A stretch of DNA of 31,332 nt from positions 1 through 31,332 of IMG/VR virus record IMGVR_UViG_3300032287_004284; one strand, 5' to 3'. The DNA is from a virus. Positions within the stretch are counted from its first letter, which is position 1, and each line of letters starts with the position of its first letter. The notes beneath the pieces were generated by a model that did not search any database, was not told the DNA's origin, and was given only the letters and a program-made list of their open reading frames with translations. The position numbers were made by a program, and so were the translations under genes. Below are positions 1,233-18,138 of the stretch, one piece after another.

Positions 1233-1493
1233 ATGAACACCTACAAAATCGAAATCGCTGACAAGACTGGCCACACGACCGTAGCTGACCTCACCCTGGA
1301 GCAGGCTGTAGATAACATTCTTCAGCATGCAGAAAACAACGCTCGTTGGGTATTTATCAACGGCGAAAAGTTTGAATTCCAAGGAACGAACTATCGCACA
1401 GAAGATAACGTGCAGAAGCTTCGCTCAAAACTGGAGCAGCAAGAAGATCCTGCCGTCATGCTGACCGGCATGCTGGTTGGCGGGACCAAGTAA
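1233..1493 (+). CDS. small protein ending in Gly-Gly-Thr-Lys; candidate ubiquitin-like modifier
   Basis: This 86-aa protein shows the order strand (YKIEIAD), strand (HTTVADL), helix (LEQAVDNILQHAE), strand pair (ARWVFINGEKFEF), helix, then a C-terminal LVGGTK. The beta-beta-alpha-beta-beta order and the near-terminal Gly-Gly are what a beta-grasp, ubiquitin-like protein would show. The final Thr-Lys could be a tail removed by a JAB peptidase. A JAB peptidase and an E1-like enzyme lie 2.2 kb downstream, although a terminator separates them. This is inference only. Many small phage proteins have a similar 'rWvfinGekF' hairpin, and the protein may have no link to the E1 and JAB genes. Confidence 0.75.
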   Translation: MNTYKIEIADKTGHTTVADLTLEQAVDNILQHAENNARWVFINGEKFEFQGTNYRTEDNVQKLRSKLEQQEDPAVMLTGMLVGGTK

Positions 1494-1512
1494 TCAAGCA
1501 TCCCCCATTAAT

Positions 1513-1550
1513 AAACCCTCTGGTGAGCAATTGCCAGAGGGTTTCTTTTT
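1513..1550 (+). terminator. rho-independent terminator
   Basis: An 11-bp perfect stem, AAACCCTCTGG (1513-1523) with CCAGAGGGTTT (1534-1544), is followed by TTTCTTTTT. It ends the transcript of the three small genes and separates them from the 698-aa protein gene. Confidence 0.92.
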
Positions 1551-1583
1551 GCCTTCGGGCGAGACCTACAATTAATAAACACT

Positions 1584-3680
1584 ATGGATCTACCCTATAA
1601 ATCTTTTTTAAAAATAGCTAAACAAGCACAAATATTAAGTAAGCACGTCAATATGATGGACGTGAGCATTGATAAGACTAATGAATATGTGGATGGTCAA
1701 TATGTGCCTACAGTAAAGGTAGCGTACACAAACTTACATTTTGATAGTGTGGCAGACATGCATGCCTACGCCAAGTATCTACCTATACCTACCCATAAAC
1801 TTAAAATAGGTAAGGACATCAGCCATCAAGATCTTGAAGCAAACATAGCTCAACGTGCAGGCTGGGACAATACCCACATTATGCGAGGGTTAGGGTACGA
1901 TACAGCTAAAGGCGAGACTTCTGTAAAGCTTATTCCTGAAGAAACACTCACTGTTTTTCGTCCTAACATAATTAAGCTGGATCCTGTTGAGTATACAGAA
2001 GGAGACTATACATACAGGATTCTCACAAGCCAGAGCACTAAAAACTACGCTGCACGCATTCGTGTTATAGCTAGAAACGACGAGCCTATTTACGATTACC
2101 TGGATAAAGGGTTTTTCGTAATGACTATTGCTGAAAAATCTGACGAATTAACTAGACCTGCCTTTGTTGTGTCAGACAGCTATGATGTGAATACTGCACA
2201 TATCTTTATGATGTGCAAGATGCAGCCTAACCTGGTGAGTATGCTCAAAGATGAGTGCTTTGCGAGCAAGTATGATGCAGAAATGACCAAGCTTAAAATG
2301 CTAAGGAAGCTGACTCCAGAAGCTAAAGTACGATATTTGAAGCAATCAAAAACCATTGATGAAGATTATCGCAAGAATACTACACTGGTAGTAGTCGGTA
2401 AGTTGATTGCTGGAGAAATTGAAAAAACTACTATTAGAGACGTAACGTTCTCAGCGACAACGGCAAAGTATGAAAATACCGAAATTGAAGCTGAGGATCT
2501 CATGACTGTGTTGTCAAGAAATCTTGATTTTAATAGCGAGTTTGACATCTATGCTGTGGTTCAGCTCTATACTAATTATGTGAAAACGTGCTTGGCTACG
2601 AAGAGCTGGAATTATAAAAAAATTGATGACATCAAAGCTGGTAACGATCCTAAACAAAAGAGTGTACCTACGTTTAAAATCAACGGAATCAGTATATCTG
2701 CAGCAGTTTCTTATACTGGACAAAGGTACGTAAACAATATCAGGATTAATCATGATGAGGTATCGACAGCCATGCATCGTGCGTCCTGCTATAGGTCAGC
2801 CGAAGATTATAGTCTGTTTCTCAAGAGCATCAGTCGTATGAGTCTCAAGAGACACGACATTATTGCAAATGGTCTGCAGGTAAAGATTCACGCAGGCATG
2901 AGTGGAGAAGAATACAGGGAAGCCACTCCTGGCGTAAATGCCCCTGCACTTAAGTTTGTAATTGATCCACAGGATAAACGTATCAAGCTGCACATTGACG
3001 AAAATAGGCAAGTACCTGTAGATATTAGCGGACTGATCAAAAAGGTACAAACGATCAACTCAAAAACAAATAATAGGTCGTTTTACGATAGGTCAGAAAA
3101 CATATACCAGTATGTCAGTAGAGATCATATCTGGGCAGCTAAAGAGCTCACGAAAGCATTGATTGAGTTCACCACCTTTCCTGTAAAGTTTAAAAACATG
3201 GAGGATGGTACAGAAGTAGAAAAAGATGTGGTCATGATCTCTAAAGAAGATGTGACTAAGCTATTGCGTGTTGTTGAAGAGCAAAACAAAGCCAAGATCG
3301 AAAGGTCTAAGCAGTTCTTGAGTACAGCTGTAAAGCTTACAGGAGCTGAAGAGATCGAATTCCTTGGGGAGAAGGCCTATAAAGTTAAAGGCAATCTTAG
3401 GGAGTATGCCGTGGTAATTAAAACTGCCAAGGTTTACGATTACGAAACAAAACAGTATCGTTGCATTGTTAATGACCGGCACTATAAGGGTGCAGGCTAT
3501 GACGATGTTGCGAGCAGGCTTTTGGCTCTCAAAAACGACTCTGTGATGCAAGATCAGATCGGCACACTCAGGGGAGCAGCACAACCTGGAGCAGAAAATG
3601 CACACAATGATTATAGGCCTGAGCGAGACGTACAGGATATCATTGCACCTATGGTAGATAAAGCATTCGAGAAAGTATAA
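1584..3680 (+). CDS. large protein of unknown function, first gene of the JAB/E1 cluster
   Basis: This 698-aa soluble protein has no signal peptide or membrane segment, and I do not recognise its family. Residues 1-200 are mixed alpha/beta; a Lys-rich helical stretch follows (about 215-260). The C-terminal end (about 665-698) is a charged tail rich in Arg, Asp and Glu. The gene stops 2 nt before the JAB peptidase gene and reads into it and the ThiF gene with gaps of 2-3 nt, so the three are probably co-transcribed. In this setting it could be a substrate, partner or E2-like carrier of the modification enzymes, but no E2 signature is visible to me. The ATG follows 'ttaataaacact', an A/T-rich leader without SD. 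It is the first gene after a strong terminator, so a promoter should lie in 1551-1583. Confidence 0.85.
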   Translation: MDLPYKSFLKIAKQAQILSKHVNMMDVSIDKTNEYVDGQYVPTVKVAYTNLHFDSVADMHAYAKYLPIPTHKLKIGKDISHQDLEANIAQRAGWDNTHIMRGLGYDTAKGETSVKLIPEETLTVFRPNIIKLDPVEYTEGDYTYRILTSQSTKNYAARIRVIARNDEPIYDYLDKGFFVMTIAEKSDELTRPAFVVSDSYDVNTAHIFMMCKMQPNLVSMLKDECFASKYDAEMTKLKMLRKLTPEAKVRYLKQSKTIDEDYRKNTTLVVVGKLIAGEIEKTTIRDVTFSATTAKYENTEIEAEDLMTVLSRNLDFNSEFDIYAVVQLYTNYVKTCLATKSWNYKKIDDIKAGNDPKQKSVPTFKINGISISAAVSYTGQRYVNNIRINHDEVSTAMHRASCYRSAEDYSLFLKSISRMSLKRHDIIANGLQVKIHAGMSGEEYREATPGVNAPALKFVIDPQDKRIKLHIDENRQVPVDISGLIKKVQTINSKTNNRSFYDRSENIYQYVSRDHIWAAKELTKALIEFTTFPVKFKNMEDGTEVEKDVVMISKEDVTKLLRVVEEQNKAKIERSKQFLSTAVKLTGAEEIEFLGEKAYKVKGNLREYAVVIKTAKVYDYETKQYRCIVNDRHYKGAGYDDVASRLLALKNDSVMQDQIGTLRGAAQPGAENAHNDYRPERDVQDIIAPMVDKAFEKV

Positions 3681-3682
3681 TT

Positions 3683-4117
3683 ATGTATATATTCAGATAC
3701 GGCATAGAATCGTTTGTTAAGGCGGTGCTTTCCGCTTCTCGAGAGTGTGCTAGTACTCTAGAGGAGGAGGGCGGTATTATCATGGAGAAAGAGGGCGTGT
3801 ACGAATTCGTGAGAATTAAAAATGTTCACGAAGGTACAGATAGAGCATCAGGATTATACGAAACAGATCAAGAAGAACTGTCTCAACTGGTGTTCTCTAG
3901 AGTCTGCAAAGGCTGGAAGATGCACGCCAGCTTCCATACTCATCCGTCATTTAGTCCTACTCCCAGCTGCCTCGATATAGACAAGCTGTTTGAAGGATTT
4001 AGGTACAACGTTATATGGTCTCCTACACATAGATCTTTTTCATATTCTATGTGGGTAGGAGAACTTACTTACGCATCATACTTCCCAGTAACAACATTCG
4101 AACAATTAATCAAGTAA
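3683..4117 (+). CDS. JAB/JAMM (MPN) metallopeptidase
   Basis: This 144-aa protein is a compact JAB domain. The zinc-binding motif is intact: HTH at residues 85-87, followed by Ser95-Cys-Leu-Asp98, matching HxH-x(7)-SxxD. The glutamate of GGIIMEKEG (about 35) is a candidate for the catalytic acid. JAMM enzymes cleave isopeptide or peptide bonds next to ubiquitin-like proteins. In bacteria they occur with E1-like proteins in PRTRC, CBASS type II and related operons, and in phages in tail-assembly genes. Here the domain stands alone and is followed 3 nt later by the E1-like gene. The length is close to the minimal domain. A role in maturing or removing a ubiquitin-like modifier follows from the family and the neighbour. 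Confidence 0.88.
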   Translation: MYIFRYGIESFVKAVLSASRECASTLEEEGGIIMEKEGVYEFVRIKNVHEGTDRASGLYETDQEELSQLVFSRVCKGWKMHASFHTHPSFSPTPSCLDIDKLFEGFRYNVIWSPTHRSFSYSMWVGELTYASYFPVTTFEQLIK

Positions 4118-4120
4118 CCT

Positions 4121-4717
4121 ATGAAATTGGACAAAATAGCTATTGCAGGTGCAGGAGGAATCGGATCTAATCTATTGAGCATACTATTTGATTATGGCTA
4201 CAATCGTAAACAATTCAGCTACATGGATGTAGAAGTCGACATCTACGACGACGATACTGTAGACATCAAAAACCTGCTTCATCAAAACTTCAAGATTGAT
4301 GATGTGGGAAAACATAAAGTCAAAGTACTGGAAGATAAGTACATCGCAAGCGGAATTACACGTAGAATGACTGAGGAAGACTTCCATAAATACAACGTTA
4401 TTTTCAGTTGTGTGGACAGTATGCCGTTTAGAAAGAGCCTGTACGAATATGGTTGGAGCGTAGGTAAGGATAGCCTTTTCTGGATTGACGGACGCTGCAC
4501 TAGCAGGCAGGGTGCGTTGTTCACATCTGATATGCTCAAGCCTGCTCTAGAACCATTCATCGACAGCTCGCAAGAAGAAGGAGGCTGTCTTCTGGCTTAC
4601 GAGAAAGAACAGAACATCAGTCACACGCTACCCACTATTGTTGCCGGAATGATGGTGCAAGCATATTTAAACAAATTAAGGGGACAACAGACATTTAAAT
4701 CTGTGTTTATGGTGTGA
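4121..4717 (+). CDS. ThiF/MoeB/E1-like adenylating enzyme
   Basis: This 198-aa protein begins with a Rossmann nucleotide loop, GAGGIG (residues 10-15). It continues with the E1 acidic motif DDDTVDIKN (43-51), the conserved lysine in GKHK (64-66) and CVDS with Asp99. These are hallmark E1 positions for ATP binding and acyl-adenylate formation on the C-terminal Gly of ubiquitin-like proteins. The usual NLxRQ motif reads NLLHQNF, so His54 sits where the conserved arginine is expected. The likely catalytic cysteine is Cys156 in GGCL. No CxxC zinc pair is seen. At 198 aa it is shorter than MoeB, leaving just the adenylation core. Gene order JAB-ThiF resembles the PRTRC and related clusters. Confidence 0.88.
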   Translation: MKLDKIAIAGAGGIGSNLLSILFDYGYNRKQFSYMDVEVDIYDDDTVDIKNLLHQNFKIDDVGKHKVKVLEDKYIASGITRRMTEEDFHKYNVIFSCVDSMPFRKSLYEYGWSVGKDSLFWIDGRCTSRQGALFTSDMLKPALEPFIDSSQEEGGCLLAYEKEQNISHTLPTIVAGMMVQAYLNKLRGQQTFKSVFMV

Positions 4718-5004
4718 TGACTAAACTGGATGAGAAAAAACTAAAAAAAGATGCAGAGAAATATCTTACAGCGTTACTTGACAAAGCCTGCCTATCTCTA
4801 GATATTCAACTTAAGGAATGGGATATTAACGAGGAGCTGTTTAAAGCTGTAATATCTTCGCCTAAAATAAAATACAGAACATGCCAAGAACAATTCGAAA
4901 CCTATAGCACATGTCACACACTAATCAAAAAGCTAAACATCAAAGTCTGTTCAAAATTTAAATGGTTCACAGACATCAAAAAACATACAACAAACAACAA
5001 ATAA
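4717..5004 (+). CDS. small Cys-containing helical protein, last gene of the JAB/E1 cluster
   Basis: This 95-aa, Lys-rich, mostly helical protein is not recognised. ATG at 4717 overlaps the stop of the E1-like gene in TGATG, which favours it over the GTG one codon upstream, and implies translational coupling. Four cysteines (in KACLS, RTCQE, STCHT and KVCSK) are present; one could be a thioester acceptor, but there is no E2-like pattern around any of them. The last residues are a low-complexity His/Thr/Asn/Lys tail. The tight coupling suggests that it acts with the JAB and E1 proteins. Confidence 0.75.
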   Translation: MTKLDEKKLKKDAEKYLTALLDKACLSLDIQLKEWDINEELFKAVISSPKIKYRTCQEQFETYSTCHTLIKKLNIKVCSKFKWFTDIKKHTTNNK

Positions 5005-6063: not shown

Positions 6064-7263
6064 ATGGATAATCTAGACTCATTCCTATCATCAATCAAAA
6101 AGAGTTTCGGTAAAACGTTTAAAAACGAAGCCGTTAACTTAGAACTAAATACAGCAGACAGAGAATTACCTCCTACAGGGATAGTTCTAGACAATCCATT
6201 GCTTGAGTATGCATTCGACCGTAGGTTTATGGCCTACGGTCGCTGCTATCTACTCTATGGTAAAAAGGGTTGCTCTAAGACTACACTGCTATTTGATCTT
6301 GCAAAAATATTTCAAAAAGCAGGAGGCAAGATGTTCTGGATCGAGACTGAGAACGCCCCAGACTTCAGGTATATGGAACTTCAGGGAGTTGACCCTAAAG
6401 GAGTAATCTATCATAATCCAAAAAGTTTGGAAGAAGCGCTTACACTGTGTAAAATCATTATTGAGAACTACTCAAAACACAGTGACGGTAAAACACCCAT
6501 ATTGGTTGCGCTAGACTCTATTGCTGGAGCCAGCACCGATTACGAGCGAGATCAGGACGTAATTGGTCAAACCAAGGTGGGTGAGCACGCAAAACTCATG
6601 TCAGCGTTCTATAGGAATATTATTCCATATCTAGAATGCGAGAATATGGTGTTTGTGGCTACCAATCAATTAAAAGACCAGATTGGAGGCATGACAGGCT
6701 TTGGCACAGAGAAGCCAGAAGCACTAATCGGCGGCGAGGCTCAACGCTTCAACTCTACATACCAATTCAAGGTTGCCCGTATCAAGGACAATCTTGAAGA
6801 AGATCATATGGGTGTCAAGCGCAAGGCAGGCTCAACGCACACGCTCACAGTCAAGCGTAATAAACTTGGCCGCGAGGGCAACAGTCAGAGAATTGAGTTT
6901 GACGTACATATCAATGGAGGCATCGATTGGTATTCTCCATTGGTGAGAATGCTTGGAGAAGAGTATACAGGAATTGTAGGTAAAACAGGAGGCTGGTATA
7001 CCTGGAAGATTCCTGATGTGGAATTCACACTGGATGTAGAAGGAGAACAGACTACATTTAAGATAGATACAGATAAAAAGTTCAGAGAACAAGATCTGGG
7101 TGTGGTTCTTTCCAACAGTCCTCAAGCAAAAGAAATCATCAGAAAAGCTTTTGGTATACCTGATATGCCTACTGCTGAGATCGAAGAAGAAATTAACAAG
7201 ATCAACAAGACCAAAAGAAAAAGAGCGTCAGAGCTTGAAACTTCGGTAGTTTACGATGAGTGA
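6064..7263 (+). CDS. UvsX/RecA-family recombinase
   Basis: This 399-aa strand-exchange ATPase has a P-loop GKKGCSKTT (residues 66-74), a Walker B strand ILVALDSIAG (Asp151), and a following VFVATNQLKDQIGG segment typical of RecA motif 4 with its DNA-binding loop. The P-loop has Ser in place of the last Gly of GxxxxGK(T/S), as UvsX proteins also deviate there. Length fits UvsX (about 390 aa) more than bacterial RecA. It lies 7 nt after the SSB gene, matching the working partnership of the two proteins in recombination-dependent replication and repair. The C-terminal region (about 350-399) is charged and Lys-rich. Confidence 0.92.
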   Translation: MDNLDSFLSSIKKSFGKTFKNEAVNLELNTADRELPPTGIVLDNPLLEYAFDRRFMAYGRCYLLYGKKGCSKTTLLFDLAKIFQKAGGKMFWIETENAPDFRYMELQGVDPKGVIYHNPKSLEEALTLCKIIIENYSKHSDGKTPILVALDSIAGASTDYERDQDVIGQTKVGEHAKLMSAFYRNIIPYLECENMVFVATNQLKDQIGGMTGFGTEKPEALIGGEAQRFNSTYQFKVARIKDNLEEDHMGVKRKAGSTHTLTVKRNKLGREGNSQRIEFDVHINGGIDWYSPLVRMLGEEYTGIVGKTGGWYTWKIPDVEFTLDVEGEQTTFKIDTDKKFREQDLGVVLSNSPQAKEIIRKAFGIPDMPTAEIEEEINKINKTKRKRASELETSVVYDE

Positions 7264-9464: not shown

Positions 9465-9857
9465 GGGGGTGATTTGGTTTCGACTAAGCATGAGCCCTTA
9501 TAGATGCATGTAGAGGAAGCCTGGTGGGCCTCTTGAAAATCTAGGCAAAATAAACGCAGAGTCATTAGACTACGCCCCTTCGGTGGCAGAAGCTGATGCA
9601 TTCCTTGAAGCTACTGGCTTCGTGGATGCAGAGCTCCTCGCCGCATAAGGTACAGACTGGATGCTATTAAAAGTCTGTAATCGTTAGTAGCTGGTGCTTG
9701 AAGTTAGAACTGTTATTCAAGCAGAACAAGAACAGTTCAAAAGAAATTATATAGTTTGATTGTTGACGCTATAATTTCTTGCAAAAAACAATCTAAGCAT
9801 GTAGATTCTATAAGATAAGTGTTTAGGACAGGGGTTCAACTCCCCTCACCTCCACCA
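9465..9857 (+). ncRNA. ssrA: tmRNA (transfer-messenger RNA)
   Basis: This 393-nt tmRNA rescues stalled ribosomes by adding a degradation tag. The 5' end GGGGGUG (9465-9471) pairs with CACCUCC near the 3' end. The third pair is G-U, the alanyl-tRNA synthetase identity element. GAUUUGGUUUCGAC matches the conserved tmRNA D-loop region, and the T arm is GGGG-UUCAACU-CCCC. The 3' CCA is encoded. The internal part holds hairpins expected of the tmRNA pseudoknot region: UACAGACU/AGUCUGUA after the tag, GAACUGUU/AACAGUUC, and the AAGAAAUUAUA/UAUAAUUUCUU stem. It begins the tRNA cluster and is read in the same direction. Phage tmRNAs are known but rare. Confidence 0.93.
9556..9648 (+). other. tmRNA tag reading frame (30 codons)
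   Basis: The likely resume codon is GCA at 9556, preceded by AAUAAAC, matching the A-rich segment before the E. coli resume codon. The frame runs to UAA at 9646-9648. The tag begins AESLDYAPSV and ends VDAELLAA. The LAA ending fits recognition by ClpXP-type proteases. Thirty residues is long compared with the common 8-15. The resume codon is inferred; one further downstream would give a shorter tag with the same end. Confidence 0.75.
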
Positions 9858-9864
9858 TTTAATC

Positions 9865-9933
9865 GCGGGATAGTGAAGTGGTAAAACAGGAGTCTCATAA
9901 GCTCCAGTCCCAGGTTCGATTCCTGGTCCCGCA
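9865..9933 (+). tRNA. tRNA-Met or tRNA-Ile2 (anticodon CAU)
   Basis: The acceptor GCGGGAU pairs with GUCCCGC. The anticodon arm is GGAGU-CUCAUAA-GCUCC with anticodon CAU, and the T arm CCAGG-UUCGAUU-CCUGG is intact. It lacks initiator features (no C1-A72 mismatch, no GGG/CCC anticodon stem). A CAU anticodon could be elongator Met, or Ile if the wobble C is modified to lysidine by the host. The base after the discriminator is A, then CCA follows, so a CCA end may be made by trimming or by addition. It lies 7 nt after the tmRNA. Confidence 0.93.
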
Positions 9934-9978
9934 ACCAATTTCGGAAAATACCCGTAACACGGTAGACTTCTGGAAAGC

Positions 9979-10051
9979 GCGACACCTGCGGGCTGGCCTT
10001 TAGGCTGCGTCGAATCAGTGGTGCGACTGTCAGGAGAGTACTGGCAAATTT
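9979..10051 (+). ncRNA. repeated leader element, copy B (ahead of tRNA-Tyr)
   Basis: The blocks GCGACACCTGC (9979-9989), AGTGGTGCGAC (10017-10027), GGAGAG (10033-10038) and CAAATTT lead directly to the tRNA-Tyr 5' end at 10052. The block order and the last spacings match copy A (15-16 nt between the second and third blocks, 19-21 nt from GGAGAG to the tRNA or tmRNA). The inner hairpin differs (GCC-TTTA-GGC). GTCAG/CTGGC can form a 5-bp arm around a 7-nt loop holding GAGAGTA. A separate small hairpin, CCGT-AAC-ACGG (near 9950-9960), lies upstream. Confidence 0.55.
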
Positions 10052-10133
10052 GGGTAGTTCGCATAGCGGCTATTGCAGGAGACTGTAAATCTCCCCTCTT
10101 CGGAGACCGATGGTTCGAGTCCATCACTGCCCA
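10052..10133 (+). tRNA. tRNA-Tyr (anticodon GUA)
   Basis: The acceptor GGGUAGU pairs with ACUGCCC. The anticodon arm is GGAGA-CUGUAAA-UCUCC with anticodon GUA. A long variable arm (CCUCUUCGGAGACC) marks a class II tRNA, as expected for bacterial tRNA-Tyr. The T arm is GAUGG-UUCGAGU-CCAUC. The discriminator is A and no CCA is encoded, so the host enzyme would add it. Confidence 0.95.
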
Positions 10134-10143
10134 CACTTTAAAT

Positions 10144-10215
10144 GCCTCGTTAGTTTTAATGGTAAAACGCAGAGCTTGTACCTCTGTCTTCTCAGTTCGA
10201 TTCTGAGACGAGGCT
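10144..10215 (+). tRNA. tRNA-Thr (anticodon UGU)
   Basis: The acceptor GCCUCGU pairs with ACGAGGC. The anticodon arm is CAGAG-CUUGUAC-CUCUG with anticodon UGU (Thr, ACA). The T arm is CUCAG-UUCGAUU-CUGAG. The discriminator is U and no CCA is encoded. A run of seven T follows, so the tRNA may itself act as the stem of a terminator for the cluster. Confidence 0.93.
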
Positions 10216-10223
10216 CTTTTTTT
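10208..10223 (+). terminator. possible terminator at the end of the tRNA cluster
   Basis: A T-run (10217-10223) follows the tRNA-Thr acceptor strand directly. The GC-rich acceptor stem could act as the terminator stem. No separate hairpin is present. Confidence 0.4.
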
Positions 10224-11451: not shown

Positions 11452-11868
11452 ATGCCTGCGACATATCAAGACATTACGATTACAGAAGAATTTTTAAACA
11501 AAGAGCAAAACGCTTTTTTTGTTTATGGAGACAACCTGCAAAGAAGAGGAACTGCAGGAGCAGCCAAACTTAGGCACCACCCTAGAGCAATCGGGTTTGT
11601 TACAAAGAAAGAACCTACGCATGACCAGAGCGCATGCTTTACTCCAGAAGAATATGCGAAACCCTTCTTCGAGCAGCTAGATCAGTTGTCTGCTCATGTT
11701 AAAAACAACCCTGGCAATAAATTCTATATATCCAAACTAGGTTCAGGGTTGGCAAACAGATACTGGATATGGGAAAAAGTGATAAGCCATAATCTGCAAG
11801 ATGAGCTGGGAGGATACGACAACGTGGTATTCTGCTGGAGTCTAGATGACGAAAACTTCAACAAATAA
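11452..11868 (+). CDS. macro-domain-like phage protein
   Basis: This 138-aa protein begins with a short strand region and then FFVYGDNLQRRGTAGAAKLR (start near residue 22). This resembles the VFGSNxxGxHGxGAAK segment of macro-like ADP-ribose-binding folds found in phage genomes. Later, FYISKLGSGLANRYWIWEKV (Gly-rich loop) and the end strand VVFCW fit the same layout. ADP-ribose or nucleotide binding is inferred from that pattern; the catalytic role is unknown. It lies 2 nt after the membrane protein gene and 4 nt before the RNA ligase, so NAD/ADP-ribose or RNA repair chemistry may be involved. Confidence 0.5.
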   Translation: MPATYQDITITEEFLNKEQNAFFVYGDNLQRRGTAGAAKLRHHPRAIGFVTKKEPTHDQSACFTPEEYAKPFFEQLDQLSAHVKNNPGNKFYISKLGSGLANRYWIWEKVISHNLQDELGGYDNVVFCWSLDDENFNK

Positions 11869-11872
11869 AATT

Positions 11873-12916
11873 ATGGAAAAACTAGCCGTAGTAGCCAAAA
11901 TATTAGAATTAACCCCTATTGTAGGAGCTGATAGAATTGAGACAGCTACCGTACTAGGTTGGCAGGTAGTTACACAGAAGCATCTGTATAGTATTGGAGA
12001 TCTAACTGTAATTATATTCCCGGATACTCTTGTACCTAAAAAGTTCCTAGATGGGGCATATCAAGGCGATGAAAAGGTAAGGTTAAAAACCATAAAGCTT
12101 AAAGGACAGTACAGTGCAGGGTTATTGTTACCTATGTCCGTTGTAGGTAATAGTTTTAAAGAAGGAGATGAAGTGAGCGAACTGTTGGGTGTAGAAAAGT
12201 GGGTTGCTCCAGTTTCAGCATCTATAGGAGGAGATGTTGCAGGCAATTTTTTGTCTGCTTTTATATCAAAAACTGACGAGTACAATATCAGGTCAGAGCC
12301 ACAAGCTTTACAGGAAGTTCACAATGACCCCATATTTAAGAATTCTGATTTTGTGGCTACACTTAAATGTGACGGATCTAGCGGTACATTTATAGCCCAC
12401 AAAAATACCTTTAGAGTATGCTCTAGAAATTTAGAGCTCAGAGAAACTGAAGGAAATGTTTTCTGGCAGGTGGCTAAAAAGTACAACTTGTCTGAAAAAC
12501 TTAAAACCTTTGGCGATAATGTAGCTATTCAAGGGGAAGTTTGTGGTCCAGGTATTCAGGGCAACCCTATGAGATTAGAGGAAATTACATTCTTTGCTTT
12601 TTTGATGAAAGACCTGCGAACACATAAATGGTTAAGCTGGGACAGTCTTGTGGATTTCTGCACTACAAACAACATACCTCATGTAAAAGAATTGCACAGG
12701 TTTAAAGCAAATGAAGAGAACTTGAGCTTAGCTAGATTGCAAGAACTTGCTAATAATGCAAAGTACGCCAACGATAAAACAAATGCCGAAGGAATCGTCA
12801 TTCGTCCAGTAAATCCTATTCCTTCTAGAGTATTACAAAAGGGATGGTGGAGTTTGAAGGTTATGAATCAACCGTACGATATGAAGAAAGGCGCAGATGA
12901 TACTAAAGCTAATTAA
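11873..12916 (+). CDS. RNA ligase, DraRnl (Rnl5)-like
   Basis: This 347-aa covalent nucleotidyltransferase has nucleotidyl motif I KCDG (Lys165), where AMP attaches, motif RNLEL, EGIVIRP (motif IV) and WSLKV (motif V). About 110 residues precede the ligase core. They hold the pattern RIETATVLGWQVVTQK, then VIIFPDTLVP, resembling the OB-like N-terminal domain of the Deinococcus enzyme. Rnl5-type ligases seal nicked RNA with a 3'-OH/5'-PO4. I chose the ATG at 11873 because the upstream in-frame ATG at 11846 lies inside the previous gene. With the polynucleotide kinase further on it makes an RNA-repair pair. Confidence 0.82.
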   Translation: MEKLAVVAKILELTPIVGADRIETATVLGWQVVTQKHLYSIGDLTVIIFPDTLVPKKFLDGAYQGDEKVRLKTIKLKGQYSAGLLLPMSVVGNSFKEGDEVSELLGVEKWVAPVSASIGGDVAGNFLSAFISKTDEYNIRSEPQALQEVHNDPIFKNSDFVATLKCDGSSGTFIAHKNTFRVCSRNLELRETEGNVFWQVAKKYNLSEKLKTFGDNVAIQGEVCGPGIQGNPMRLEEITFFAFLMKDLRTHKWLSWDSLVDFCTTNNIPHVKELHRFKANEENLSLARLQELANNAKYANDKTNAEGIVIRPVNPIPSRVLQKGWWSLKVMNQPYDMKKGADDTKAN

Positions 12917-13121
12917 ACATACCAGTAATCCCTCTAACGAAGATTACATATATCTTGCGTCTGACAAGATTTACACAATGGAAGAGATATTTACTGTAGA
13001 TAAGAAGACTGAGAGCTTTAAATTTTCTCATACAGTAATAGATATTGGTTTTGACGAGTATGTCGTAAAAGTCAAAAATCCTGCAGAAGAGATCTGCAAA
13101 ATGATCAGAGGGAAAAAATGA
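12897..13121 (+). CDS. hypothetical protein, first of two tandem paralogues
   Basis: This 74-aa protein shares a pattern with the next gene: YTMEEIFTVDKK, then SHTVIDIGFDEYVV, then NPAEEICKMI. It starts 20 nt inside the RNA ligase gene, in another frame. The fold looks like a small beta sheet with a final helix. No family is recognised. Confidence 0.65.
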   Translation: MILKLIKHTSNPSNEDYIYLASDKIYTMEEIFTVDKKTESFKFSHTVIDIGFDEYVVKVKNPAEEICKMIRGKK

Positions 13122-13291
13122 TCCAGATAACAAAAGACCTCTGGGTCAATATCATGAACGTCATATGGGTAGAAGACGTGTACGATAAAAACAAAGATTA
13201 TCTGCATACAAAAATTGTCACAATTGGGGGAGACCTGATTGTATTAAATACGTGTGCGGAAGAAATAAGCAAACTCTTAAAATTAGACTAA
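13118..13291 (+). CDS. hypothetical protein, second tandem paralogue (57 aa)
   Basis: The product reads MIQITKDLWVN, ..., VIWVEDVYDKNKD, TKIVTIGGDLIVL, CAEEISKLLKLD. The order and spacing match the preceding 74-aa protein (IFTVDKK/VYDKNK; VIDIGFDEYVV/IVTIGGDLIVL; NPAEEICKMI/TCAEEISKLL). Its start overlaps the preceding stop in ATGA. It is short, but the homology and coupling make it very likely real. Function is unknown. Confidence 0.7.
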   Translation: MIQITKDLWVNIMNVIWVEDVYDKNKDYLHTKIVTIGGDLIVLNTCAEEISKLLKLD

Positions 13292-13292
13292 T

Positions 13293-13511
13293 ATGATTAT
13301 TACAAGAAAATCCCCCGTCACCGGAGTCACTCACAGCCTGGACCTGCCTGTCACCGAACAGCAGATTCAGGCCTGGCAAGAGGGACAGCTCATTCAAAAT
13401 GTTTTTCCTGATCTTTCTCCTGGAGACAGGGAATTTATTAAAACAGGTATCACAAACGCAGAATGGAATGATATGTTTGGTATGCCTGAAGAATCTGAAG
13501 ACATCGAATAA
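13293..13511 (+). CDS. conserved phage small protein
   Basis: This 72-aa acidic protein has MIITRKSPVTG at the N-terminus, and IQAWQEGQLIQNVFPDL followed by REFIKTGITNAEWNDMFG. I know this layout as a widespread small phage protein without assigned function, usually in early or nucleotide-metabolism regions. It is the last gene before the terminator at 13535. Confidence 0.8.
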   Translation: MIITRKSPVTGVTHSLDLPVTEQQIQAWQEGQLIQNVFPDLSPGDREFIKTGITNAEWNDMFGMPEESEDIE

Positions 13512-13534
13512 ACACTAACACAAATCAATTAATC

Positions 13535-13566
13535 ACCCAGCACTCTAACAGGTGCTGGGTTTTTTT
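13535..13566 (+). terminator. rho-independent terminator
   Basis: A 9-bp stem, ACCCAGCAC (13535-13543) with GTGCTGGGT (13552-13560), is followed by T7. It closes the operon ending with the 72-aa gene. The next gene's ATG begins on the base after the T-run. Confidence 0.93.
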
Positions 13567-14106
13567 ATGTACTACTTTTGGAATAGTAACAAGACAGCGG
13601 AGGTTTGGTTTAGAAATAAGCGTAAACCTCCAGAGCAAAACCATAAGCTGGTGGCTGATACCTATTCGCCAACAGCTATTTTATTTGGGTCAAGTTTATG
13701 CAGAGAAATGTTTAATGCAGATGCGCCGACAGTAAATAAGTTCGCAATGCTTAGATTAGTAAGGTTGGACGGAGGTTATAGCGCTTCTGGAGGTATATTT
13801 GTGAATGACAGCCTGACAATCAGCAAAATAAAGCGCTATGACTATGTCGAGCGCAAAGAGATTGAAGGGCAGGGTATCTACAGAGTCGCGGATGTAAGCT
13901 TTTACACGTCGACCTGCACATATGAAGTAAAGCTATTGGGAAACTCGGAAGTTTCCAGATTAGCTAAAAATAAAGAAATGTTTCAAGCCATGAAATCAAA
14001 TCTAGATAGAGCTACATTAAACATATATGTAGAGCTGATGATGGACTTGCCTAATATGGCCGAAGAGCTTTTCCACGTAATACCGGAGGTTAAAAGAAAG
14101 AAATAA
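13567..14106 (+). CDS. hypothetical protein
   Basis: This 179-aa protein is mixed alpha/beta, with a central Gly-rich strand (GGYSASGGIFVND) and a helical C-terminus ending in VKRKK. It has no membrane segment and I recognise no family. ATG 13567 abuts the terminator T-run, so there is hardly any leader if transcription starts after it. Alternatively, read-through of the terminator feeds this gene and the start is correct but unusual. A later start cannot be excluded. Confidence 0.65.
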   Translation: MYYFWNSNKTAEVWFRNKRKPPEQNHKLVADTYSPTAILFGSSLCREMFNADAPTVNKFAMLRLVRLDGGYSASGGIFVNDSLTISKIKRYDYVERKEIEGQGIYRVADVSFYTSTCTYEVKLLGNSEVSRLAKNKEMFQAMKSNLDRATLNIYVELMMDLPNMAEELFHVIPEVKRKK

Positions 14107-14117
14107 ACGATATAGAT

Positions 14118-14750
14118 ATGAATAAAGAAGAATTTCACAAAGCATACGTTAAATATAATAAAACTGTTTTTGCGTATCTTGTAAATAAAATCAGAAATAC
14201 GCAAGACGCAGAAGACTTGACGCAAAAAACCTTTATGCGCTTTTTTAAATCAAAATTTGACGCATGGGACAATCAGGAGTATTTGAAGAAATACTTATTT
14301 ATTACCGCTAAAAACTGCTATAAAAGTCATGTGACATTTATGATCACTAATCCTGCGCGTGATTTTTTCTTGATTGAAGGAGAACAATTGCACTTTAAGT
14401 CGCTAGAAAAAAAGCTTACATATGCTAAACATTATGATCCTTTTACGTTGAGAGACCTTGCCGAGTTTGACAGTGACCCTGAAAGCAATCTTAGTAATCT
14501 GGAAATAGTTGCTGGCGGTTATGATTCGGACACTCCGACCTATCAATCAGAACTAAATTTAATGATTGAAAAACTGAGAGCAATCATAGAAAGCATGCCC
14601 CCTAAACAAAAGGAAGCCATGATTGAAGTGTATTTTAATGGGCTAAAACCAAGACAGGCTGCAATAAAACTTAAAAGTAACGCTAACCGAATAGCTTTTC
14701 TGACGCATAAAGGCAAACAACAAATTAAGAAAAAATTAACACATGTTTAA
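14118..14750 (+). CDS. ECF-like sigma-70 family factor
   Basis: This 210-aa protein has a sigma-2 region at the N-terminus (YNKTVFAYLVNKIRN, then DAEDLTQKTFMRFFK), which binds core RNA polymerase and the -10 element. A C-terminal sigma-4 region (about 150-205) reads AIIESMPPKQKEAMIEVYFN, then LKPRQAAIKL and a final helix, the usual -35-binding HTH. The linker (about 75-150) is long and acidic. ECF-type sigma factors have only regions 2 and 4, as here. Phage-encoded sigma factors typically switch host polymerase to middle or late promoters. No anti-sigma gene is next to it. The overlap with the next gene is 8 nt. Confidence 0.82.
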   Translation: MNKEEFHKAYVKYNKTVFAYLVNKIRNTQDAEDLTQKTFMRFFKSKFDAWDNQEYLKKYLFITAKNCYKSHVTFMITNPARDFFLIEGEQLHFKSLEKKLTYAKHYDPFTLRDLAEFDSDPESNLSNLEIVAGGYDSDTPTYQSELNLMIEKLRAIIESMPPKQKEAMIEVYFNGLKPRQAAIKLKSNANRIAFLTHKGKQQIKKKLTHV

Positions 14751-15198
14751 AATATATTTTCGAGACAAAGGTTGCACCAGAAAGCTTAATATGCCGAATA
14801 AGCTTAACTGTGAATACTATAAGCTAACTCCAGAATTTTGGAATGCTCAAGAAGATCAGTTGGTATGCCTGATAGATCCTATTCTTGAAGGCAAAATATA
14901 CTGGAAGGCCGATATGCAAATAGTAGACTCTGCCAAGGTTAGGTTTCACAGATATGGCATCCAAGAAGATGGACCAGTTCAAATAACCTGCTACTGGAAT
15001 CAGTCGGCGTATTTAGAATTAGACAAATTTGGCGGGGTTTTTACCCAGCGAACACAATGCGCTCTGCATGATGTATCAAACAGCTTCGAGGCACACAAGA
15101 CATGGGAGCACTTGTGCGCTATTCCTCATATATTTAGAGCGGCAATAGCTGAATTCCATGAATGGTTTCCAAACACAAACAACGTAAAAAAACAATGA
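14743..15198 (+). CDS. hypothetical protein
   Basis: This 151-aa protein is mixed alpha/beta, rich in aromatic residues (YYKLTPEFW, IYWKADM, CYWNQSAYLELD) and has several Cys and His. No known domain is recognised. It is coupled to the sigma factor gene by an 8-nt overlap, so it may act with it. Confidence 0.7.
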   Translation: MFKIYFRDKGCTRKLNMPNKLNCEYYKLTPEFWNAQEDQLVCLIDPILEGKIYWKADMQIVDSAKVRFHRYGIQEDGPVQITCYWNQSAYLELDKFGGVFTQRTQCALHDVSNSFEAHKTWEHLCAIPHIFRAAIAEFHEWFPNTNNVKKQ

Positions 15199-15419
15199 AT
15201 CAACTACAAGTAGGAGTAAGTATGAGTGTAGAAGACGCTACAGAATATCTTGAATCTGTTGGCGAATGGCATACAGTACGTAATGTCCCAAGAGAGGTAA
15301 TGGTCAAGTGGGCCGAATATTTAAAAAACGAAGAAAATGAAATATCTAGTAATACCCGACGTTCACCAAAAGCTAGACAAGCTGGAAAGAGTCTTCAAGA
15401 AAGTCCAGAAGTTCGATAA
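15195..15419 (+). CDS. small protein overlapping the phosphatase gene
   Basis: The start ATGA overlaps the preceding stop at 15195-15198, giving a 74-aa product. The N-terminal 50 residues are a helix-rich acidic domain (SVEDATEYLESVGEWHTVRNVPREVMVKWAEYL). The last 27 residues, rich in Ser, Arg and Pro, are coded by sequence also read in another frame as the start of the metallophosphatase gene. An 83-nt overlap is unusually long here. The C-terminus may be an unimportant extension. Confidence 0.6.
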   Translation: MNQLQVGVSMSVEDATEYLESVGEWHTVRNVPREVMVKWAEYLKNEENEISSNTRRSPKARQAGKSLQESPEVR

Positions 15420-16158
15420 ACTGATCTCTCTAGGAGACTGGTTTGACAACTTTCATGATTCTCCTGAAGACAGCATGCGTACAGCCATGTATATTTTGGA
15501 TTTGTACGAAGAGTTAGGAGACAATTTTATATGGCTCATGGGTAACCACGATATTCCATATTTGTTTCCTGAGACATACGATATACTCAGATGTAGCGGA
15601 AATACTTTCGATAAGCTTACAATTATTCAAAAGATATTTAAAGACAGGCTGCAACGGGCTAGATTGATGTTGGCTTACAGAATTAAATACGCTAAAAAGA
15701 AAGATATTATCCTTTCGCACGCAGGAGTGAGTAGATATCACTTCGCCACAAAGTCTGGTAATATTTCTTCTAAACGTGTTTTAGACCTGTGCCATGAAAC
15801 AACAGGAACCTTATTCCGCATGGAAGGAGATCCTATGGTTGAACAATACTTGCCCATCCTTAAGGCAGGCAGAGCCAGGAGAGGAGATATGCCTGTAGGA
15901 GGTATAACCTGGCTGGACTGGAACCTTGAGTTTCGACCTCACCCTCAGATAAGTCAGATTGTAGGACATACTCCTACGCAGAATCCTCAAATCATGGATG
16001 GTAATGACTCAGCCATAGCTCCTGACGCTGGAACTCTTGACACAGGTTTGGAGTATCATCTAGCTCCAGGCGTAAGCTATAACTTCAATATAGATACGCA
16101 TCTAAACCATTACATCATAATCGAAAACGGAAAAATAATAATTCACAGAAATGAATAA
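15337..16158 (+). CDS. calcineurin-like metallophosphoesterase
   Basis: This 273-aa protein has the full set of metal-site motifs: DVHQK (8-12), SLGDWFDN (D33), GNHDI (about 68-72), SHAG (about 127) and GHT (about 209). These bind two metals and hydrolyse phosphomonoester or diester bonds. Its small size suggests a protein phosphatase like lambda PP or a nucleotide phosphodiesterase. It starts within the previous gene and overlaps the DNA ligase by 8 nt. With the neighbouring DNA ligase and Pnkp, an end-processing role is also possible. Confidence 0.85.
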   Translation: MKYLVIPDVHQKLDKLERVFKKVQKFDKLISLGDWFDNFHDSPEDSMRTAMYILDLYEELGDNFIWLMGNHDIPYLFPETYDILRCSGNTFDKLTIIQKIFKDRLQRARLMLAYRIKYAKKKDIILSHAGVSRYHFATKSGNISSKRVLDLCHETTGTLFRMEGDPMVEQYLPILKAGRARRGDMPVGGITWLDWNLEFRPHPQISQIVGHTPTQNPQIMDGNDSAIAPDAGTLDTGLEYHLAPGVSYNFNIDTHLNHYIIIENGKIIIHRNE

Positions 16159-17281
16159 ACTCGCAACACTGTATAAGCTGACATCGACAGGGGCCACGCA
16201 AGAGTGGACTATCTTCTCTGAGGATGGCTCTTTCTGGACTGTAAGCGGCCAGACAGATGGCAAGAAAGTTACTAGCGCAAAAACAAATTGTGCTGGTAAA
16301 AACGTGGGCAGAAAGAATGCCACGACACCAAACGAGCAGGCATTAAGAGAGGCACAGGCTAGATGGCAAAAGAAGAAAGATGAAGGTTACGTAGAAGACA
16401 TCAAAGATATTGATGTGGTGGATGACAGGGTTGATCCTATGCTCGCGAAGAACTATGAAGATTATAGTTCAGAATTAGAGTTTCCTGTGTACTCTCAACC
16501 TAAGCTTGACGGCTTGCGTTGTATCGTCACAAGACAGGGAGCGTTTAGTCGTAAATGGAAGCCGTTCACAACGCTTCAACATATCAGAGACGCGTTACAA
16601 CCTATCTTTGATAAGTACCCAATGGTGCAAGCGTTTGACGGCGAAATGTACTCACATGAGCTAAAAGATAACTTTGAAGAGATTGTGAGTATCGTCAAGC
16701 AACCTAAAGCTACAGCTGAAGACATCGAGAAGTGTAAGCGAATGGTGCAGTATCATATCTATGACTATGTACCATCCAACGATCTTGCTGACCTCATATT
16801 TAAAACGAGAGATCTTGATCTGAGTGTGATGATTCCTAAAGATAGTGAACATCTGAAGCTAGTCAAAACCAAAATGATTTGGAATAAGGAAGAGTTGGAT
16901 GAGGAGTATCAATGGTATATGGTTGACGGATACGAAGGCCAGATGATCAGAGCAGATGCTCCATACCAACAGAAGAGAACAAAGTATCTGCTAAAGCGTA
17001 AAGACTTTGTAGACGAGGAGTTCTTGATTGTTGGCTATAAAGAAGGCAAAGGTAATAGAGAAGGCTGTATTACACTCAGATTGTGTACCAAAGATGGTAA
17101 AGAATTTGACTCTGTGCCTGTAGGTGGAGTTGAGTATTTGCAAGATTTATGGCAGAAGCGTCTACGGCTGCCTGGTCTTTATGCTACAGTTAAGTACCAA
17201 AACCTCAGTACTGATGGAATACCGAGGTTCAATAATACCATCAAATTCAGAAACATTCTAGGAGAAGACGTAGTAATATGA
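16151..17281 (+). CDS. ATP-dependent DNA ligase
   Basis: This 376-aa enzyme joins DNA nicks with ATP. Motif I is KLDG (Lys118), in the context SQPKLDGLRC. DGEMYSHEL, VDGYEGQMIR and YLLKRKD fit motifs III, IV and V, followed by an OB-fold segment (about 290-376). The N-terminal 85 residues look like a WGR-like module (YKLTSTGATQEWTIF, SGQTDGKKV), which may help DNA binding. The length fits compact phage ligases. Overlaps of 8 and 4 nt join it to its neighbours. Confidence 0.9.
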   Translation: MNKLATLYKLTSTGATQEWTIFSEDGSFWTVSGQTDGKKVTSAKTNCAGKNVGRKNATTPNEQALREAQARWQKKKDEGYVEDIKDIDVVDDRVDPMLAKNYEDYSSELEFPVYSQPKLDGLRCIVTRQGAFSRKWKPFTTLQHIRDALQPIFDKYPMVQAFDGEMYSHELKDNFEEIVSIVKQPKATAEDIEKCKRMVQYHIYDYVPSNDLADLIFKTRDLDLSVMIPKDSEHLKLVKTKMIWNKEELDEEYQWYMVDGYEGQMIRADAPYQQKRTKYLLKRKDFVDEEFLIVGYKEGKGNREGCITLRLCTKDGKEFDSVPVGGVEYLQDLWQKRLRLPGLYATVKYQNLSTDGIPRFNNTIKFRNILGEDVVI

Positions 17282-18138
17282 GTAAAATTATTGTATTGAG
17301 AGGTCTGCCGGCCTCAGGCAAAAGCACCTGGGCCAAAGACTATATCAGCAGAAACCCTAGGACCTCTAGGGTAAATAAAGATGACTTGCGTGCAATGCTC
17401 CATAACAGTCAGTGGAGTCAAGAAAACGAAGAGCTAGTACTAGATATTCGCGACAGTATCATCATATCGGCAATTAATCATAATTATGATGTTATCGTTG
17501 ATGATACGAACTTTGCCGCAAAACATGTAACCACTATCCAGGAAATCGCAGAGGATTGGAATGCAGAATTTGAGGTGAAAGACTTTGACGTTTCTCTTGA
17601 TGTATGTCTTGAGAGAAACAGAAAGAGAGATAGCAGCGTACCAGATAAAGTCATTATTGATATGTACGAAAAGTACGTACTGCCAAAGAAAGAAAAGGTA
17701 GTGCAGACACCTGGTAAAACAAAAGCTATCCTGGTAGATCTAGATGGTACATTAGCCATACACAATAGAGCTGCATTTGATATTGAGCGGTGCGATACTG
17801 ATACACCTAATCCTCCTGTGCTTAATGCTATAAAAGCACTAAGCCAGTTTGGCTATAGGCTGATCTTCCTTACAGGGAGAGAAGACTCTTTCAGACCGCA
17901 AACAGATAAGTGGCTTAAAGAAGTCTGCAACGTTGATGTTTTTGCTCCATGGTATATGCTGTATATGCGACCTACTGGAGACAACCGCAAAGACAGCCTG
18001 GTTAAAGAAGAAATTCTAAGAAATGAGATTCTTCCTAATTACTATGTTGAATTTGCACTTGACGATAGGCAGCAAGTAGTAGATCATTTGAGAGAAATGG
18101 GTTTAACTGTATTTCAGGTAGCTCCAGGTAATTATTAA
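17278..18138 (+). CDS. pseT: polynucleotide 5'-kinase/3'-phosphatase (T4 Pnkp-like)
   Basis: This 286-aa bifunctional enzyme has an N-terminal kinase with P-loop GLPASGKS (residues 9-16) and DDTNF (around 75-79). The C-terminal phosphatase has the DxDGT motif DLDGT (Asp154), TGRED and LDDR. T4 Pnkp heals RNA ends left by the host anticodon nuclease before RNA ligase seals them. Length and domain order match T4 Pnkp (301 aa). It overlaps the DNA ligase by 4 nt. With the RNA ligase at 11873 it forms the repair pair, though the two are 4 kb apart. Confidence 0.92.
   Translation: MSKIIVLRGLPASGKSTWAKDYISRNPRTSRVNKDDLRAMLHNSQWSQENEELVLDIRDSIIISAINHNYDVIVDDTNFAAKHVTTIQEIAEDWNAEFEVKDFDVSLDVCLERNRKRDSSVPDKVIIDMYEKYVLPKKEKVVQTPGKTKAILVDLDGTLAIHNRAAFDIERCDTDTPNPPVLNAIKALSQFGYRLIFLTGREDSFRPQTDKWLKEVCNVDVFAPWYMLYMRPTGDNRKDSLVKEEILRNEILPNYYVEFALDDRQQVVDHLREMGLTVFQVAPGNY

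Follow-up and report, generated by a model that had tools for sequence, protein, structure and literature searches.

A probable virus-borne ubiquitin-like modification system with a large cysteine-containing partner protein

Introduction

In prokaryotes, ubiquitin-like conjugation has until now been described chiefly as a host trait, as in SAMP, CBASS Cap2/Cap3 and Bil, or as a trait of plasmids and similar elements, as in PRTRC. The PRTRC set, which we take to be class 6d of Iyer 2006, combines a ThiF protein with a JAB protein (A), an E2-like protein (B) and a ubiquitin-like protein (C). Bil (BilA-D) and CBASS Cap2/Cap3 carry out E1/E2 conjugation together with a JAB-family protease, and in Bil it is BilC that trims BilA to expose a glycine (PMC11354881). 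The archaeal SAMP/UbaA/HvJAMM1 system joins a minimal E1 to a Gly-Gly modifier and a JAMM protease. Among phages, the lambdoid TAPI/TAPK pair likewise unites a ubiquitin-like protein bearing a conserved C-terminal glycine with a JAB domain, but it has no E1, its JAB is joined with NlpC/P60 and it lies in a tail gene context (PMC1779556). Our literature search, whose coverage was incomplete, returned no report of a phage set of ubiquitin-like protein, E1, JAB and E2, nor of microbial viruses bringing such a system of their own, and an overview of jumbo phages is silent on JAB, ThiF and E1-like proteins (PMC7824862). Here we analyse a 31,332-base virus record with phage genes (the whole stretch is referred to below as the window) that carries a candidate for such a system.

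Results

A sequence-only reading of the window had described a possible ubiquitin-like conjugation module, and its genes all proved to be open, on the plus strand and where that reading had placed them. They encode an 86-aa candidate ubiquitin-like modifier whose pro-form ends LVGG-TK (1233-1493, with the Gly-Gly codons at 1479-1484), a 698-aa partner protein (1584-3680), a 144-aa JAB/JAMM peptidase (3683-4117), a minimal 198-aa E1/ThiF-like enzyme (4121-4717) and an accessory Cys-containing small protein of 95/96 aa. This last gene overlaps the E1 stop and begins either with a GTG (4714-5004) or with an ATG at 4717, which would give 95 aa. Gaps of only 2-3 nt separate the 698-aa, JAB and E1 genes from one another. 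The terminator said to divide the modifier from the enzymes is indeed found as an intrinsic terminator with a 14-bp stem (1513-1544, plus strand), and relatives carry a similar hairpin and T run 3' of their modifier-gene homologue, an arrangement that fits separate expression of the modifier and, judging from the terminator, perhaps higher expression than that of the enzymes. In family-profile searches the modifier, the 698-aa protein and the small downstream gene matched no accepted family; Pfam matches to Binary_toxB_3 (modifier) and DUF7737 (698-aa partner) lay below cut-off and were regarded as chance.

Elsewhere in the window are genes for a RecA-like protein (6064-7263), an RNA ligase, a sigma-70-like protein, a DNA ligase and PNKP, as well as one tmRNA and three tRNAs. 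The tmRNA precedes the three tRNA genes at 9465-10216, and its predicted 30-aa tag is unusually long, so the tag call may be off. The RNA ligase, DNA ligase and PNKP-type kinase/phosphatase genes fall inside about 6 kb (11846-18138), which can be compared with T4-like tRNA repair. Upstream of the modifier, two genes (12-815 and 862-1149) have a common domain, and related copies occupy the same side of the modifier in many relatives.

Both enzymes named in the sequence-only reading, a free-standing JAB peptidase and a minimal E1-like enzyme, were recovered by Pfam above cut-off (Prok-JAB, 29.3 bits against 25; ThiF, 64.8 bits against 28.1). Among 24 E1s drawn from the window type, a second virus group described below and PRTRC, the residues that never vary are G10, G12, G13, G15, S16, D43, D45, V47, N51, Q55, K66, D99, R104, D123, C156 and A175, and these include the P-loop G10-x-G-G-x-G15. 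C156 is the sole invariant cysteine across 44 viral E1s and aligns with the invariant cysteine of PRTRC ThiF, which makes it the candidate catalytic cysteine. In the JAB peptidase, the residues of the metal motif E...HTHx7SxxD (E27/E28, H85, H87, S95 and D98) are invariant in 13 homologues. With their catalytic residues kept, both enzymes look active. A pattern scan of GTDB contigs found no relatives of the E1. In one related locus (L032 8682-10456) an insert of about 1.1 kb interrupts the E1 gene near its NLLHQNF motif. The insert contains a 323-aa ORF resembling a homing endonuclease of the LAGLIDADG type, as an intron or intein might, and has no Rfam match.

We compared these proteins with each of the described systems. 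PRTRC likewise has a stand-alone E1, a JAB protein and a small beta-grasp protein, within NCBIfam the window E1 matches its ThiF family best, and the invariant E1 residues, C156 among them, are common to both. Nevertheless, this match reaches 46.8 bits against a TIGR03736 cut-off of 144.75, NCBIfam models of PRTRC A, B, C, E and F matched none of the window proteins, and HHalign gave 9% for PRTRC-C against the modifier and below 1% for PRTRC-B against the 698-aa protein. The C-termini differ as well, since the modifier ends in Gly-Gly plus a tail whereas the PRTRC-C ends observed were GAKGCHA, GAKGGDA, DSNG and KTNG. The module sits in a replication block, not among tail genes. By these tests it is neither PRTRC nor a phage tail module, in line with the earlier judgement that neither context is a good fit.

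Unlike in Bil and CBASS, the window E1 is a single ThiF domain without an inactive half or an inserted Cys domain, and the module has no recognisable E2, is virus-borne and lies in replication blocks. Assignment to a catalogued defence system of the CBASS or Bil kind was rejected, as PADLOC-DB returned weak generic matches only (JAB, 1e-4; E1-E2, 2e-5) and none of its models of ubiquitin-like or E2 proteins matched the modifier or the 698-aa protein. The SAMP system is similar in its parts, and the window JAB has a weak match to desampylase (20 of 130 bits), but sequence comparison did not link SAMP to the window modifier, and in the window type a conserved large Cys-containing partner accompanies the set.

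The sequence-only reading had also given the 86-aa protein the element order of a beta-grasp fold, and its AF2 model agrees, with the order b-b-a-b-b-(a)-b (b1 4-10, b2 13-20, a 22-35, b3 39-42, b4 45-47, a 57-68, b5 74-78), a pLDDT of 82 and a pTM of 0.74; the last residues are floppy and modelled with low confidence. In Foldseek comparisons with the PDB, the neighbours of this model were mostly ubiquitin, SUMO, ISG15 and FAT10, with probabilities of up to 0.92 and weak E-values (best 7e-3, none below 1e-3). VIA placed it at Z 4-5 to ubiquitin, ISG15 and MoaD and at the same level to protein G/L and PB1 domains. The protein is thus predicted to adopt a beta-grasp fold, whose subfamily the structure leaves undecided because Z scores of 5 or less are equal for ubiquitin and other beta-grasp proteins.

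In an alignment of 26 diverse homologues of the modifier (A5), G13, G83 and G84 are the only invariant columns. The Gly-Gly is present in 26/26, while the 0-9 residues that follow it vary freely and have no shared sequence, two fusions excepted. Nothing follows the Gly-Gly in L005, L012, L037 and L058; the short tails of one or two residues are C, TK, HK, LK, RK, EI, NE, VK, SK, AK and TH, and the longer ones are TKA, ASL, AAQE, GLLN, DKQSL, LGIAE, QAVLFDIE and LLQELLSLE. The two fusions (L039 6644-7375 and L040 6922-7407) are natural and carry a related, domain-sized C-terminal extension after the Gly-Gly, of which we found no separate relative among the loci; they are reminiscent of natural ubiquitin fusions. 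At the level of sequence, a diglycine that never changes, followed by a tail that changes freely, marks a processed ubiquitin-like precursor, and JAB trimming of a pro-modifier would lead one to expect this pattern; LVGG-TK had been read in this way before any homologue was aligned.

An E1-based IMG/VR alignment scan yielded 28 contigs with E1 identity down to about 51%. Homologues of the 86-aa and 698-aa proteins were present in all 26 E1 loci that reach far enough upstream, each with the gene order modifier-698-JAB-E1, and a JAB gene lay near the E1 in 28/28. Because the whole region is syntenic in these relatives, neighbouring genes (343-aa, RecA-like and others) included, this co-occurrence is not independent and is weak evidence of function on its own; all parts do recur in one order across independent contigs, with an invariant Gly-Gly and a variable tail in 26 modifiers, and the module therefore goes beyond chance. 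As for membership, the sequence-only reading was right to include the 698-aa protein, which is a conserved partner and no bystander, whereas the small downstream gene has no detectable copy in about half of the closer relatives and so is not a core part. In many relatives (L006 8932-9570, L030 8855-9514 and others), unlike in the window, the 698-aa gene and JAB are separated by a gene of the RNase H-like 3'-5' exonuclease type. Across 50,697 GenBank phages we found no homologue of the modifier or of the 698-aa partner, and the only E1s there were distant ones in Flavobacterium and crAss-like phages.

A search with the modifier (A1) brought in a second virus group, starting from two loci (L058 and L059) with a 66-aa protein ending ..LTPAIVGG. 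The modifier of this group, 66-68 aa long and ending ..PAIVGG plus 0-2 residues, aligns with that of the window type at an HHalign probability of 96.8% (E 2.8e-10); five column-shuffled controls reached no more than 1.4%. It is encoded in at least 95 IMG/VR stretches, of which 80 loci and L058 were analysed, and in all 81 of these it ends in Gly-Gly plus 0-2 residues; among 58 distinct sequences the tail is absent in 11, one residue long in 6 and two in 41. A 415-aa-type protein (p415) is encoded in each of the 80 loci, an E1 in 78 and a JAB in 77, and where E1 or JAB is missing the gap lies near contig ends. HHalign did not join the JAB proteins of one group with those of the other, which differ too much (9%) although both have the motif.

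In the 64 second-group loci that extend 9.9 kb or further downstream, modifier, p415, E1 and JAB are all present without exception, a count that for the modifier itself holds by construction because it was the search bait. The four genes are scattered among others at distances of -7 to 3,643 bp, and five genes between them, including those for ribonucleotide reductase and pyrimidine-dimer glycosylase, are kept in 35-57 of the 64; the same 64/64 retention holds for a TFIIB-like and an 83-aa gene. The four therefore stay together even though they do not form one operon and intervening genes come and go, and no other observation argues as strongly for a functional unit. Wherever relatives have enough sequence, the modifier thus occurs with JAB and E1, and the second virus group repeats this association; together with the predicted fold and the conserved diglycine, it supports the modifier interpretation as a whole on each of the three points set beforehand as tests of it. 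The TFIIB-like zinc-ribbon protein, a weak Pfam match (L058 12266-13174), hints at a possible archaeal host for the second group, and in GTDB the second-type modifier is confined to two short contigs from a single MAG, too weak a basis for a host call.

The 698-aa partner, or its smaller relative p415 in the second group, accompanies modifier, E1 and JAB in all loci of both groups with enough sequence and is therefore a core part. C402 and C627 are invariant in the 26 rows of its alignment, p415 included. The best-kept part of the protein surrounds C627 (CIVN...G.D..A.RLLALKND....I.TL), and p415 has a counterpart of this motif (GPICIDNM...GDQFAARALALLND) whose cysteine is invariant in 40 sequences. 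With no shared rows, HHalign joined the two families at 57% over the full length, 94% from residue 355 and 93% from residue 545, and at 36% when only the 13 closest rows (A4) were used. By profile comparison, then, the C-terminal half of the 698-aa protein is related to the smaller p415 of the second group.

In the C-terminal part (about 545-698) of the AF2 model, the elements H562-586, E589-593, E596-602, E607-611, E617-619, the C627 loop and H640-650 follow one another in the order of the UBC fold (a1, four-strand meander, Cys loop, a2). VIA gave residues 558-655 some low-scoring matches to Mcm21, CENP-P and KNL1, which are RWD-type kinetochore proteins, at a Z of about 3 that is within noise; the whole 698-aa model had no significant fold-search match, and VIA Z was 3.3 or less. 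Sequence searches for an E2 retrieved no PDB sequence at E-values up to 10 (A7), no E2 family in Pfam and no HHalign match to a 5-sequence PRTRC-B profile. We put the chance that the 698-aa protein acts in an E2-like role, with the C627-bearing C-terminal domain as its candidate carrier, only just short of even.

A different phage cassette also places a ThiF E1 beside a JAB-motif protein. In crAss-like and Flavobacterium phages (L061 11247-16469, crAss001 gp79-gp75; L062; L063; L060, FpV4 11532-16634), it comprises the E1, a protein with the JAB motif HSHx7SxxD, a small protein ending KKIKSG plus an extension, and a protein with a conserved MHSH...C motif; in cr106_1 the small protein stands alone at 92 aa. 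In a BFVD fold search the window modifier matches a 92-aa cr106_1 protein, probably this same one and probably the small beta-grasp component of the crAss cassette. Unlike the window module, however, this set has other companions and a KIKSG end, and its proteins cannot be aligned with the window modifier or partner (HHalign below 1%); it looks like a second, unrelated phage ubiquitin-like cassette.

Discussion

The best reading of this region, and in our judgement a likely one, is that it encodes a virus-borne ubiquitin-like modification or conjugation system in which the 698-aa protein may serve as an E2-like relay. Its computational support consists of the predicted fold, the Gly-Gly/tail pattern, the conserved catalytic residues and the four-part association in two groups of uncultivated viruses.

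Because a minimal E1, a JAB peptidase and a beta-grasp protein also serve sulfur transfer, the main rival is a sulfur carrier of the ThiS/MoaD/TtuB/CysO kind, in which JAB would trim, the E1 would adenylate and the resulting Gly-Gly thiocarboxylate would give its sulfur to a tRNA or metabolite, with no conjugation. Minimal ThiF-type E1s and JABs do accompany sulfur carriers (PMC1779556), the fold comparison scores MoaD chains equally with ubiquitin, and the window has tRNA and tmRNA genes. Yet neither the module nor the scanned window genes include a sulfurtransferase, a cysteine desulfurase or a cofactor gene, and the large Cys-bearing partner kept in both groups would be superfluous to a sulfur carrier, which leaves this explanation unlikely.

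We regard as quite improbable the proposal that the module is a counter-defence decoy, its JAB and a mimic modifier or E1 undoing or competing with a host ubiquitin-like defence such as CBASS Cap2/Cap3 or Bil. Such host defences exist (PMC10097602; PMC11354881), and de-modifying proteases of Borg elements have been read in a similar way (PMC12660748), but a decoy would need neither an E1 with its full catalytic residues nor a conserved large partner, and the PADLOC matches are weak and point to generic JAB and E1-E2 domains. Least probable of all is an assembly role in which JAB processes the small protein for structural use, as has been proposed for lambda TAPI/TAPK, and the E1 has another substrate: the best PHROG match of the window JAB is a tail protein family (2.2e-7), but the module sits in a replication/recombination block away from tail genes, and TAPI/TAPK sets lack an E1 (PMC1779556).

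For a modification system, we infer a cycle of trimming, adenylation, thioester relay, isopeptide conjugation and modifier removal, with an E2 role for the large partner. The 86-aa protein would be produced as a pro-modifier from its own transcript, and the JAB peptidase would remove the few residues that follow Gly-Gly and probably strip the modifier from its targets as well. The E1-like enzyme would adenylate the exposed C-terminal glycine and then form a thioester on C156, from which the C627 domain of the 698-aa protein would most likely receive the modifier and pass it to a target, in the manner of an E2 or E2/E3. Since the genes lie among replication, recombination, repair and transcription genes in both groups, our guess is that the target is a viral or host protein of one of these processes.

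More tentatively, and at somewhat less than even chance, these modules may make up a complete and widespread virus-encoded ubiquitin-like cycle that tags proteins in viral replication, is common to large tailed phages and a second virus group whose hosts may be archaea, and uses a new type of E2 or E2/E3 carrier with no detectable kinship to known E2s. If this is true, viruses would carry a complete system whose modifier family is new and whose E2-like enzyme may be new as well, and the usual picture of such systems would be reversed. Its parts are small and testable, with a modifier of 66-86 aa and an E1 of 198 aa, and it would bear on the origin of ubiquitin-like systems.
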